Below, piece by piece: positions 48,510 through 52,257 of a stretch of 64,000 bases of DNA. The notes under the pieces are model-generated. The model made no database searches. It was not told the origin of the DNA and saw only the letters and a program-made list of their open reading frames with translations. The first letter of the stretch is position 1. Each line of letters starts with the position of its first letter. A program made the position numbers and the translations under genes. The DNA lies in assembly GCF_003386195.1 (NCBI RefSeq), contig NZ_QRDX01000003.1, positions 248,001 to 312,000 of the forward strand, read 5' to 3'. Origin of the DNA: Seonamhaeicola aphaedonensis (GTDB taxonomy: Bacteria > Bacteroidota > Bacteroidia > Flavobacteriales > Flavobacteriaceae).

Positions 48510-49496
48510 CTACTTTTTTATGTGACTTTCAAAATTTTTGTGCTCACTTTTATAGAGCTCCTCTTTGCTTAAAGTTTTGAAATATTCAAACGTAATTTTC
48601 AAACCTTTATCACGATTTACTTTAGGCTTCCAATTTAATATTTTTTTAGCTAATGTAATATCTGGTTGCCTTTGCATAGGGTCATCTATTGGTAGTCCTT
48701 TATAAACAACATTTTGCTTTGTACCTGTTAATTTAATTATTTCTTTAGCAAAATCTCTAATACTAATTTCGTGTGGATTCCCTATATTAATAGGGTAGAC
48801 ATAATCACTCATCAAAAGTCTATATATACCCTCTACTTGATCGTCTACATAACAAAACGAACGTGTTTGTTTTCCATCTCCAAAAACAGTTAGGTCTTCT
48901 CCTCTTAAAGCTTGTCCCATAAATGCAGGAATTACTCTACCATCGTTTAATCGCATTCTTGGGCCATACGTGTTAAATATCCTAACAATTCTCGTTTCTA
49001 ATCCATGGAATCTATGATAAGCCATAGTAATAGCTTCCTGAAACCGTTTAGCTTCATCATAAACGCCTCTTGGACCAATTGCATTCACATTGCCATAATA
49101 ATCTTCCGATTGAGGGTGAATCAATGGGTCGCCATAAACTTCAGAAGTAGAAGCAATAAGTATTCTTGCTTTTTTTACCTTAGCCAAACCCAATAAGTTA
49201 TGAGTGCCTAAAGCCCCTACTTTCAACGTTTGAATGGGGATTTTTAAATAATCTATAGGACTGGCAGGAGACGCAAAATGAAGGATGTATTCTAAATCTC
49301 CATCTATTTTAACAAATTCTGTGACGTCATGTTCAACAAACTGAAAATTTGGATTGTCAAACAAGTGACTAATGTTCTTTTTATCGCCAGTAATGTAATT
49401 GTCCATTCCAATAACATAAAAGCCTTCTGTAATAAACCTATCACACAAATGCGACCCCAAAAATCCAGCAGCTCCTGTTATTAAAACACGTTTCAA
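48510..49496 (-). CDS. UDP-glucuronic acid decarboxylase (UDP-xylose synthase)
   Basis: An SDR enzyme that converts UDP-glucuronate to UDP-xylose. [10 protein letters not shown] (NAD loop) at 8-17, [15 protein letters not shown] (UXS hallmark), [18 protein letters not shown] (catalytic Tyr/Lys) and [21 protein letters not shown] are present; 328 aa is normal. Together with the UDP-glucose dehydrogenase nearby it gives UDP-Glc to UDP-GlcA to UDP-Xyl. The two genes are separated only by the AAA/DUF4143 ATPase. Confidence 0.93.
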
Positions 49497-49506
49497 TAGA
49501 CTTATT

Positions 49507-50664
49507 TTAGTTATCGGTATTTTGAGCTAACAAATTTAAAGGAATAACTTCAAAACCATGGCTTCTTTTTTGATAATCTTCTCCCCCATAGATTACTTTA
49601 CCTCCTTTAAAACCTGTCATTTTATTCCAATATTTTAATCCTTTAAAATAATCTTGGGTAATTGTCTTTCCCGATTTAATTTCAATTGGCGTAAACACAT
49701 CAAAATTATCTACTACGATATCTATTTCATTGCCTTTACTATCTCTCCAAAAATATAAATTGTTTGATTCCCCTTTGTTCAAGCGTTGTTTTAACAGTTC
49801 TACTACAACCATGTTTTCGAACAAACTTCCTTTAAAAGGGTGTAGCTCCAATTGATTAGCATTTTGAACGCCCAAGAGCGCACAAGCTAAACCAACGTCA
49901 TAAAAATACAACTTAGGCATTTTAACAACTCGTTTATTAAAGTTATGATGATGGGGAGATAACCTAAACAAAATGAAACTTGCTTCCAGTATACCTATCC
50001 AAGACTCTATGGTCTTACTATCGACACCCACCTCAATCGCCAAGGCACTTTTATTTAATAGCTGACCAACCCTTCCTGCACATAATTTCATGAATCTTTC
50101 AAAAACAACTAAATTTTCGATGTTCTTTAATTGTCTAACATCTCTCTCAATGTAAGTTCTGATATAGTTTGAAAACCATTTTTGAATTTCAAATGGTTTA
50201 TCATATAGTGGTGGATAAAATCCTTTAAATAATTTTTCATGTATAGATTTAGGGGCTACCTCCTTTATTTCTGATAAAGTGAATGGCAATAAGTTTAAAT
50301 AACCAACCCTTCCCGCTAAACTTTGGGAAATGCTTTGTTGTAACAAAAAGTTATTTGAGCCTGTTAAAATGAATTGGGACACTTCTACATTATCATCTAA
50401 TACCTGTTGCAAATATGAAAACAGTTCTGGTGTACGCTGTACTTCATCTAATATAGCACCATCTGGAAATTGATCCAAAAAGCCTCTTGGATCTTCTAAA
50501 GCAAAGCTTCTCGTATCTGGATTTTCCAAACTAACATAAGACTTTGTTGAAAAAACCGTTTTTACTAATGTTGTCTTGCCTGATTGCCTTGGGCCAACAA
50601 CGGCTATCGCCTTATACTGCCTAGATAAATTTAATAGTTCTTGCTGTGCTTCTCTTAAAACCAT
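49507..50664 (-). CDS. AAA ATPase with DUF4143 (restriction-endonuclease-like) domain
   Basis: A 385-aa protein of the AAA_14/DUF4143 type. Walker [14 protein letters not shown] near 24-36, Walker [15 protein letters not shown] near 70, and a sensor-like [15 protein letters not shown] follow. A winged-helix-like middle ([22 protein letters not shown]) precedes a C-terminal PD-(D/E)XK-like core: NEIDIVVD near 313 and PIEIKSGK near 327. I start at the ATG at 50664; the frame extends 9 codons upstream into the leader. Function in this family is unknown. It interrupts ugd and the UDP-xylose gene and has a perfect palindrome before its start. It has no obvious role in glycan synthesis. Confidence 0.9.
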
Positions 50665-50681
50665 GTGTAAAGATATTAAAA

Positions 50682-50722
50682 ATAAACACAATTTCGGAAT
50701 TGCATTCCGAAATTGTGTTTAT
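50682..50722. promoter_or_regulatory. Perfect 19-bp inverted repeat just upstream of the AAA/DUF4143 gene
   Basis: ATAAACACAATTTCGGAAT (50682-50700) is followed by TGC and then its exact reverse complement (50704-50722). It lies 18-58 bp before the ATG at 50664, in the leader or over the promoter. With only three bases between arms it can form a long hairpin in RNA or a cruciform in DNA. No T-run follows, so it is not a standard terminator. Confidence 0.85.
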
Positions 50723-50768
50723 AATGTATTATACACCTTAATTATTTATAACAAGAAAAGTCTCTCAT

Positions 50769-50852
50769 TCAAAAGAAGTGCAGCGAATGAAGATCTCTTC
50801 CTGCCTATAAAATCTTAGTCTTTGAGATGCTTCGTTGCACTCTGCATGACAA
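50769..50852 (-). repeat. Long GTCATGCAGAG-type interspersed repeat
   Basis: On the reverse strand the element opens with GTCATGCAGAGTGCAACGAA and GCATCTC, and closes with GAGATCTTCATTCGCTGCAC. The arms pair imperfectly over about 20 bp around a 26-nt centre. This is a form commonly met in flavobacterial intergenic regions. It fills the gap between ugd and the AAA gene. Confidence 0.7.
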
Positions 50853-50856
50853 TAGG

Positions 50857-52257
50857 CTATTTGGAACCTTTTCCAATAGTATAACAAGTAAATCCAATGG
50901 CTTCAAGGGACTCCGTATCTAAAATACCCCGACCATCAAATACAAAAGCTGGCTTATTCATAGACTCATATATTTGCTCCCAATCATAAGTAGTAAATTC
51001 GTCCCATTCAGTTAAAACAGCAATGGCATGCGCATCTTTACAAGCCTCATAAGGATCTTTGCCTACGGTTAGTAGTTCTCGGTTTTCCTCTTCGGAACGA
51101 GAATTTAAATATTCTAAATCTCCATAAATCCGCTCTTCGGTTACTTTAGGATCGTAGACGGTTAAATGTGCTAGTTCATTTAACAAATTATCGGCCACCT
51201 TGATTGCCGCTGATTCTCTGCTATCATTAGTGTCTTTTTTAAACGCCCATCCTAAAAATGTAATTTTTTTACCAGAAACGGTATTGTATAATGTACTGAC
51301 TATTTTATCAGAAAATCTGTTTTTTTGATGTTCATTAATTAAGATGACTTGTTCCCAATAATCGGCAACTTCATTTAAACCATAACTCTTCGCTATATAA
51401 ACAAGGTTTAAAATATCCTTTTGAAAACATGACCCCCCAAAACCAACAGAAGTTTTTAGAAATTTTGAGCCAATTCTACTATCCATGCCAATGGCCTTTG
51501 CCACTTCATTCACATCGGCACCTGATTGTTCACAGATGGCCGACATGGCATTGATAGAGGACACCCGTTGTGCCAAAAACGCATTGGCGGTAAGTTTCGA
51601 TAATTCAGACGACCACACATTAGTGGTTAGAATACGATCCTGAGGCACCCAATGTGCATAGATATCCACTAGAGCCTGAATGGCTCCTTGGCCTTCTTTT
51701 GTGGTGTCTCCACCAATCAATACCCGGTCTGGATTCAATAAATCTTGTACCGCTGTCCCCTCGGCTAAAAACTCGGGATTCGATAAGATTTGAAACTGCA
51801 CCCCATTACCTGTATTGTTTAAAATGTTTTTTATGGCTTCTGCTGTTCGTACAGGAAGAGTCGACTTTTCAACAACAATTTTATCTTGCTTAGCAACCTT
51901 AGCTATTTGCCTGGCGCAAAGCTCAATATATTTTAAATCGGCCGCCATCCCTTTGCCTTTCCCATAGGTTTTGGTAGGGGTATTTACCGAAATAAAAATC
52001 ATATCGGCTTGGTCGATGGCTTGTTCAATAGCTGTTGAAAAGAATAGGTTTCTACCCCGGGCTTCTTTAACTACTTCATCAAGACCTGGCTCAAAAACGG
52101 GTAATTGAGTTAAGTCTTTAGCATTCCAGGAGGCAACTCTCGAGGCATTAACATCAACAACGGTAACTTTTATATGTGGACATTTTTGTGCAATGACGGC
52201 CATTGTTGGTCCTCCAACGTAACCGGCACCGATGCAGCAAATAGATTTAATTTTCAT
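50857..52257 (-). CDS. ugd: UDP-glucose 6-dehydrogenase, animal-type
   Basis: Oxidises UDP-glucose twice to UDP-glucuronate with NAD+. Rossmann loop [15 protein letters not shown] near 8-22, [26 protein letters not shown] and the catalytic Cys in [10 protein letters not shown] near 275 are intact. The 466-aa length, VGGPT at the NAD loop, and [15 protein letters not shown] resemble the eukaryotic UGDH branch more than the shorter E. coli Ugd. It feeds the downstream UDP-glucuronate decarboxylase. Its start overlaps the O-antigen ligase-like gene end by 11 bp. Confidence 0.95.

Follow-up and report, generated by a model that had tools for sequence, protein, structure and literature searches.

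We found that a perfect palindrome in front of an AAA_14/DUF4143 gene of Seonamhaeicola aphaedonensis is most likely the operator of the protein encoded by that gene, judging from the way site and protein vary together across homologous loci. Palindrome and gene together probably form a self-contained, autoregulated single-gene cassette, the product of which would be a STAND-like ATPase-nuclease. What the sequences provide is a family-wide palindrome whose symmetry is kept, a code between residues and bases together with its hold-out, promoter boxes adjoining the site and the behaviour of a cassette.

The protein belongs to candidate PDC-S01, an ATPase fused to a PD-(D/E)XK member that was counted 29,494 times in bacteria and 9,986 times in archaea and was put forward by 'guilt-by-embedding' (PMC12988326). 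It is termed a defence candidate, and validation is pending for most such candidates (PMC12988326, PMC13356809). With tens of thousands of copies counted, PDC-S01/DUF4143 is among the commonest single-gene defence candidates in prokaryotes, and the passages that treat it report no worked-out function (PMC12988326).

The palindrome and the gene behind it

In the window, by which we mean the whole 64-kb stretch of DNA analyzed, the palindrome (50682..50722, no strand assigned) consists of two 19-bp arms at 50682-50700 and 50704-50722 that are 100% complementary and enclose a 3-nt centre. It lies 18-58 nt upstream of the conserved ATG of the DUF4143 gene, which is on the minus strand; the initial annotation had described two exact 19-bp arms at this distance from the start codon, and its coordinates and complementarity match ours. 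With loops of up to 10 allowed, these are the longest perfect arms of the window (the runner-up has 14 bp), and the maxima in five Markov windows, generated as a control for the 64-kb window, were 9-11 bp. A 23-bp core of the palindrome, searched with up to three mismatches, occurs once in the 3.5-Mb genome, so the same palindrome was not found at unrelated genes of this genome, a finding that the initial annotation had named as one that would speak against its proposal. No second copy of the palindrome is present among the repeats listed around the window gene. Intergenic sequence in the gap between ugd and the palindrome (50746-50850; gene strand GTCATGCAGAGTGCAACGAAGCATCTC) resembles a dispersed repeat, and stretches somewhat similar to it precede the DUF4143 gene in loci L002 and L004.

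The gene (49510..50664, minus strand) encodes 385 amino acids from the conserved ATG, and its stop codon reaches 49507. The likely start codon is the ATG at 50662..50664 (minus strand), from which the protein begins MVLREAQ; this MVLRE/MILR-type start is kept in close relatives, and the ATG at 50664 is common to them. The start given by the listing of open reading frames, a TTG at 50691, falls inside the palindrome. Both Pfam models, AAA_14 (1.2e-27) and DUF4143 (7.6e-52), match above their cut-offs (175.7 vs 28.1 bits and 96.9 vs 27 bits) and confirm the AAA/DUF4143 identity proposed from the sequence alone, and seven PDC-S01 models of PADLOC match with E values from 2.2e-104 to 3e-17, the best two being 2.2e-104 and 1.2e-65. 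DUF4143 genes had been described as often present in many copies per genome, but only one DUF4143 match was obtained in this genome.

An alignment of 64 proteins showed that E313, D315, E328, and K330 are invariant. These residues belong to the EID ... EIK motif pair noticed earlier (residues 313-330; 49675..49728, minus strand), which invariance and fold comparison assign to the metal site of a PD-(D/E)XK-like domain. The Walker A and B residues G29, K30, D73, and E74 are invariant in the same alignment. Because both the metal-site residues and the ATPase motifs are invariant in these proteins, the window gene looks intact.

An AlphaFold2 model built from the 64-protein alignment had a pLDDT of 93.5 and a pTM of 0.92. 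Residues 1-265 of the model aligned with 2qen (Z 16.2, rmsd 3.0) and 2fna (Z 15.3, rmsd 3.1) over 242 residues each. The modelled helices 185-197, 205-212, and 216-228 and the strand after them form, in our reading, a winged helix-turn-helix, and the codons of D215-S216-K217, at the start of its putative recognition helix, lie at 50014..50022 (minus strand). The last 150 residues, modelled alone (pLDDT 89.4), aligned best with Can2 (Z 9.9, 147 residues, rmsd 4.4), followed by Cdn1 (Z 9.2), McrC (8.7), Card1 (8.6), and Hjc (5.1), at sequence identities of 10-16%; the top Foldseek match of this part was an archaeal Holliday junction resolvase, and it was weak (E 0.029). A sequence search of the PDB with phmmer gave no clear relative (best E 0.32). 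Walker A and B motifs, the arrangement of AAA part and winged helix in the model and the fold matches place the protein among STAND-like AAA+ ATPases, and an ExD...ExK motif on the right fold makes its C-terminal part a predicted PD-(D/E)XK nuclease.

The palindrome across the family

We then asked how general the palindrome is. Of 190 loci in total, 185 had a match; excluding seven named loci, which were overlaps or relic or part matches, left us with 179, of which 170 entered the enrichment count, reduced to 152 non-redundant homologues. The best inverted repeat in the interval from -110 to +15 reached a score of at least 10 in 57% of the 152, at least 13 in 34% and at least 16 in 18%. At the same three cut-offs the values were 0.9, 0, and 0% for shuffles (n = 456), 4.9, 0.8, and 0.5% for other open reading frames from the same loci (n = 391), and 7.4, 5.4, and 4.0% for regions downstream of the gene (n = 149). 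Part of the downstream signal is the same palindrome repeated, since a second copy lies 3' of the gene in 9/99 loci. Even among homologues of less than 40% identity, 49% reached score 10 (n = 41). A palindrome just before the start is characteristic of DUF4143 (PADLOC PDC-S01) genes as a family.

For finer comparison, the centre of each palindrome was set from the inner 12 positions only, and a core of at least 9/12 pairs was used as the cut. This core was present in 110/152 loci compared with 24/282 control regions; at ten pairs or more the counts were 63 and 2. In a second set of homologues, described below, 39/73 passed the same cut. Homologues lacking the palindrome, which had been named beforehand as evidence against the idea, thus did turn up in part, 42/152 in the first set and 34/73 in the second, against a majority that carry it in both.

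Positions 13-17 were not used in the centring and yet pair in 68-79% of the 110 loci, compared with 29-35% at 184 control sites selected likewise; base composition would give 30-45%. Past position 18 pairing fades, from 51% down to about 36% at position 24. Because positions 13-17 pair in excess and the excess fades beyond 18, a site of 34-35 bp with fixed half-site spacing is the rule as far as these alignments go, and its symmetry extends over about 17 bp per arm. Symmetry at positions 5-7 is no evidence in itself because control sites chosen alike pair there in 70-80%.

The seven closest homologues (L002-L008, 58-92% identical) all bear the core ACAATTTCGGAAT-n-ATTCCGAAATTGT, which is identical in L002-L004, L007, and L008 and has one base pair changed (TTTAGG) in the Psychroflexus loci L005 and L006. 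The outer arm sequence varies among these seven with its complementarity kept, and weaker versions of the palindrome occur in three more members of this close group (L093, L094, and L175). Perfect arms can be exceptionally long, 27 bp in L005 and 32 bp in L107; in four loci (L107, L140, L109, and L005) they measure 24-32 bp, more than binding of a dimer would need. Solo palindromes of the window type also exist. One, with 23-bp perfect arms (L210, about 1501-1529), has no DUF4143 gene within 1.5 kb on each side, and another (L214, about 1501-1529) has none within 1.5 kb on one side and about 0.8 kb on the other.

These long arms, and the second copy after the gene in some loci, are not explained by control of a promoter alone. 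The long arms raise the possibility that the palindrome acts as a DNA structure, an extruded cruciform or hairpin that would be recognized or cut by the resolvase-like or Card1-like nuclease domain and would serve as a sensor, as a homing target or in self-maintenance of an element. Consistent with such a role, outer bases differ between close relatives and remain complementary, at least six further pairs in a run lie beyond position 12 in 37/110 loci compared with 6/184 control sites, and the C-terminal domain has the weak resolvase match mentioned above. The decay of pairing between positions 18 and 24 runs against it, and the fixed half-site positions and the recognition-helix code described below are explained by binding of a dimer without any extrusion; moreover, strand-switch mutation can also perfect palindromes. 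We consider this structural role unlikely.

The window palindrome would also make a strong hairpin (z -6.5). It is followed by TTTTTAATATC on the gene strand, and a scan scored it terminator-like on both strands; the earlier statement that no T-run follows was therefore inaccurate. These features would suit an ordinary transcription terminator of the upstream gene or a hairpin in an mRNA leader, the latter having been offered by the initial annotation as an alternative. Across the family, however, only 20/89 palindromes are followed by a T-run, so termination is not a general explanation. TAnnTTTG is the -7 box of Bacteroidota promoters. Between palindrome and start codon it occurs in 27/110 loci compared with 3.8 expected, and TATAAT (at least 5/6 matches) shows a small excess in the same interval (75 vs 58 expected). 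In the window this interval holds TATCTTTA (50668..50675, minus strand), a near match to TAnnTTTG with one base off. Consensus boxes and shuffles, which are the basis here, indicate that the palindrome probably overlies the promoter. Transcription would then start at or near the ATG and the palindrome would be outside the mRNA, and the enrichment of promoter boxes past the palindrome disfavours a leader hairpin for this reason. As the residue-base code with its held-out test also speaks against both, we reject terminator and leader hairpin as general explanations and regard them as very unlikely.

Recognition-helix residues and half-site bases

The initial annotation had asked whether such palindromes covary with the protein. 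Among the 110 loci whose core had at least nine pairs, 91 passed coverage and length cuts and were used to address this. Distances between proteins correlated with distances between half-sites (Spearman 0.41; 999 permutations gave at most 0.25), a correlation that on its own could reflect joint descent. When a Mantel test was run by domain on the 91 loci the helix-turn-helix did not stand out, nor did it contribute more than its share of the 30 best columns for bases 5-7 (4 vs 3.6 expected).

A test of single columns was more specific. We took pairs of less than 50% identity (3508 pairs, 339 usable protein columns) and scored agreement for each palindrome position. The best predictor was D215 for base 5, with K217 almost tied, K217 for base 6 and S216 for base 7; these three residues adjoin one another where the modelled recognition helix begins. 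The whole triplet was best predicted by columns K217, D215, and E220. At symmetric sites D215 goes with G in 20/21 and S215 with A in 44/54, H216 goes with G in 18/19, and K217, P217, and Q217 go with G in 22/26, A in 14/16, and C in 6/6, respectively. In the window, the corresponding specificity triplet is CGG at 50695..50697 (plus strand), at distances 7-6-5 from the centre, with its mirror triplet CCG at 50707-50709; D215-S216-K217 are its proposed readers.

In 41 disjoint pairs of relatives the three associations had Fisher p values of 0.013, 0.011, and 0.041, and several position-wise p values are modest. Base 6 was also associated with residues 215, 216, and 220 in disjoint pairs (p 0.008, 0.012, and 0.005), and because these residues track it too, a one-to-one mapping of residues to bases is only approximate. 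For other palindrome positions the best columns lay outside the helix-turn-helix and had similar or larger z, such as Y43 at position 10 (z 5.4) or R177, W222, and others at position 2 (z 6.0). F277, W306, and V120 also scored for the triplet, perhaps from shared ancestry.

It is the held-out test that carries the weight. The rule was written down before the hold-out was run on 104 new loci, namely 12 from plasmids, 2 from phage scaffolds and 90 chromosomal ones from the phylum of an Akkermansia genome; 60 extra loci were hand-picked down a list, and the 14 plasmid and phage loci were hand-picked from 387 + 11 records. We dropped 18 loci with at least 80% identity to a training protein and 13 redundant ones. 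This left the second set of 73, of which the 34 without a palindrome could not be scored and 39 were. Out of 117 base positions, 16 were asymmetric and left unscored, leaving 101. Because the phylum of the 90 chromosomal loci was already in training (Akkermansia, Lentisphaerae, and others), the hold-out tests new proteins and not a new phylum. For L265-L268 the palindromes, but not the helix residues, were known before the rule was set; only L268 among them was scored, and it was wrong at all three bases.

The rule was correct at 74/101 bases in the 39 new loci (26/33, 23/36, and 25/32 symmetric positions for the three bases). With permuted residues the mean was 43.9 and the maximum 60 in 2000 permutations, which ignore relatedness among the test loci; the training baseline gave 44, and a constant guess optimized on the test set reached 52 of 101. 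A helix start of DHK went with GGG in 4/4 cases. Of the 13 misses at base 6, seven had T217 (mostly C instead of A) and three N217. The palindromes therefore do covary with the protein, including three residues of the putative recognition helix. The idea that the protein recognizes the palindrome in front of its own gene gains support from covariation, code and hold-out, all of them comparisons of sequence. Its companion, a self-mobilizing unit, did not fare as well, as another genome has a ParDE pair at the same site (see below).

From these data we propose how the cassette would work. In the product, a STAND-like AAA+ ATPase would be joined to a winged helix-turn-helix and, at the C terminus, to a nuclease domain of PD-(D/E)XK type. 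It would bind the palindrome as two subunits, or as a symmetric oligomer, via the recognition helix; in each half-site, base 5 would be read by residue 215, base 6 by residue 217, and base 7 by residue 216. Since the site probably overlies the promoter, binding should silence the gene, and the operator-bound protein would keep it silent until the protein is titrated or its state changes. The likely reason for this control would be that the ATPase-nuclease is a costly effector, in defence or addiction. Our reading is thus of a DUF4143 protein held low by its own operator and presumably acting as an effector.

A variant gives the palindrome itself the role of sensor in a one-gene guard. A STAND-like nuclease would be parked symmetrically on it and be released or activated when the DNA is destroyed, unwound or extruded during an invasion; the code would separate co-resident paralogues, and the arms would be kept as the structure that is read. 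We hold this variant to be possible though improbable. Seven genomes of family f32, which is in the phylum of the window but in a different class, have one type A (TATACAATTTG-like) and one type B (TGCAATATT-like) homologue each (G111, G212, G243, G259, G305, G402, and G453), and among the listed matches no genome was seen to have two homologues of one palindrome type. This pairing suggests exclusion within a code class; alternatively, it could reflect orthologous positions.

Cassette behaviour and known systems

In the window the DUF4143 gene stands between a UDP-sugar dehydrogenase gene upstream (50857..52257, minus strand), which we take to be ugd-like from the initial annotation and the sequence, and a UDP-glucuronate decarboxylase-like gene downstream (48510..49496, minus strand), called uxs after the same annotation. 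The proposal that the gene splits the two by insertion was partly borne out: the gene does lie between them, and in a congener (G001) ugd and uxs are about 15 bp apart, with neither gene nor palindrome. A fresh insertion is rejected, because the gene stands before the same uxs gene in other genera. In the window, as in all eight other distinct near-clade genomes compared (73-92% identity; L003/L122 and L061/L091 are identical sequences and were counted once), it directly precedes uxs. A close ugd is directly upstream in L002, L004, and L061 and a distant one (33-34%) in L005, L006, and L123. A second congener, G005 (L194), has a decayed copy in the interval between ugd and uxs, in which the palindrome persists with one mismatch and the gene is reduced to roughly its 40 final codons. 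On these comparisons the locus appears to mean either an old event with losses or repeated transfer.

Near-identical copies are often found in unrelated flanks. Among 93 assessable pairs of genes at least 88% identical (pairs, not independent events), 58 had no detectable flank homology, 20 had one homologous flank and 15 had both. In 34 hand-picked aligned pairs, of which three have one-flank homology and two were not assessable, the shared stretch begins within about 40 bp of the palindrome edge in 33/34 and 53-55 bp outside it in one; it ends within 60 bp of the stop codon in 33/34, often a few codons before the stop. By this evidence, palindrome and gene appear to travel as a cassette.

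One site, behind a Ppx/GppA-like gene (L154), was compared with empty alleles, using 20 stretches (L245-L264), of which L263 had been chosen for another locus. In 13 clean empty alleles a target of 43-64 bp proved to be duplicated around the insert; three of the remaining stretches were partial and one had a single flank. As the insert runs about 84-100 bp past the palindrome, the palindrome is not its exact end. The same site holds a ParE/ParD pair in L257 and a different DUF4143 gene in L258, the target being partly duplicated in both, so the inserting agent is not specific to DUF4143 genes. Taken over L257, L258, and L245-L256, at least 13 genomes of one genus have nothing inserted at this site, and others have ParDE or either of two DUF4143 genes there.

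Could the palindrome be the end or target of a self-mobilizing element with the DUF4143 protein as its mobility enzyme? The frequent lack of flank homology, the start of the shared stretch close to the palindrome edge, the solo palindrome of L210 and the relic palindrome of L194 would all agree with this. So would the clade-specific palindrome found again after the gene in L036, L043, L045, L046, L131, L173, L030, L019, and L016, with a spacing of 1253-1256 bp in four Akkermansia loci. However, the insert continues past the palindrome and lies between copies of a duplicated target, and the mover need not be the DUF4143 protein because the ParDE pair occupies the same site in another genome. 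A palindrome on both sides is present in only 9/99 loci, and at the one site compared the empty allele is not exact. Joined flanks, screened for the presence of spanning open reading frames as a sign of an interrupted gene, showed them at 20/97 loci, no excess over 47 control joins. Nor did we come across near-identical copies at separate positions within one genome. We judge self-mobilization quite unlikely; DUF4143 genes seem, from their genomic distribution, to behave like toxin-antitoxin cassettes.

In four Akkermansia-type genomes the palindrome pattern, at up to three mismatches, was found 4, 4, 2, and 1 times; save for the single one, these occurrences form pairs spaced by about 1253 bp. 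A phage or plasmid origin was also considered and rejected, as 12 stretches from viral_contigs matching one of six peptide patterns encoded no relative and had no exact palindrome. Relatives of less than 60% identity occur on plasmids (387 records) and in the 'phages' set (11 records, each a 'Bacteriophage sp.' of faecal origin), and the DNA of the locus had no match when compared with plasmids. Around four hand-picked plasmid copies, HipA, RelE/ParE, CRISPR-associated or restriction genes are found at distances of up to about 2.5 kb. The Wolbachia plasmid pWALBA2 (L266, 16.8 kb) has a 48% identical homologue with a weaker upstream palindrome and a RelE/ParE toxin gene about 1.5 kb away.

A private operator and a three-residue code make the role of PDC-S01/DUF4143 proteins directly testable. 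Another way to read 'guilt by embedding' also opens up: DUF4143 cassettes may land in many places, defence loci included, since their mode of travel resembles that of toxin-antitoxin pairs. The window protein matches the PDC-S01 models of PADLOC, from which a defence role may be presumed here, and the published passages on PDC-S01 mention no operator, palindrome or reading code (PMC12988326). At least one member of the family is conditionally expressed, as RNA of the Thermus DUF4143 gene TT_P0211 was 6.6-fold more abundant when an Argonaute-bearing strain carried a plasmid (PMC4406477).

In its predicted fold the ATPase part resembles the archaeal AAA+ ATPases PABY2304 (2qen) and SSO1545 (2fna), and the window protein differs from these in the extra nuclease-like domain that follows. 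This C-terminal domain aligns in the model with the CRISPR ancillary nucleases Can2, Card1, and Cdn1, with McrC and with Hjc; unlike Can2, Card1, and Cdn1, the window model has no CARF sensor part, but an AAA part and a winged helix instead. Toxin-antitoxin modules such as ParDE are autoregulated via an operator in their own promoter. Like ParDE, the DUF4143 unit is a stand-alone cassette able to occupy the same site, but it consists of one gene, in which DNA-binding, ATPase, and nuclease-like parts are joined in one chain. RptR, the repressor of a defence island, is different again, being a separate small repressor with a 6-bp palindrome and no ATPase-nuclease. In the titles, abstract openings and passages of open-licence papers covered by our searches, several of them narrow, palindromes ahead of DUF4143 genes were nowhere described. 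Autoregulation through a palindrome is familiar as such; a large uncharacterized ATPase-nuclease family with a private, evolving operator and a readable code is, as far as we searched the literature, new.
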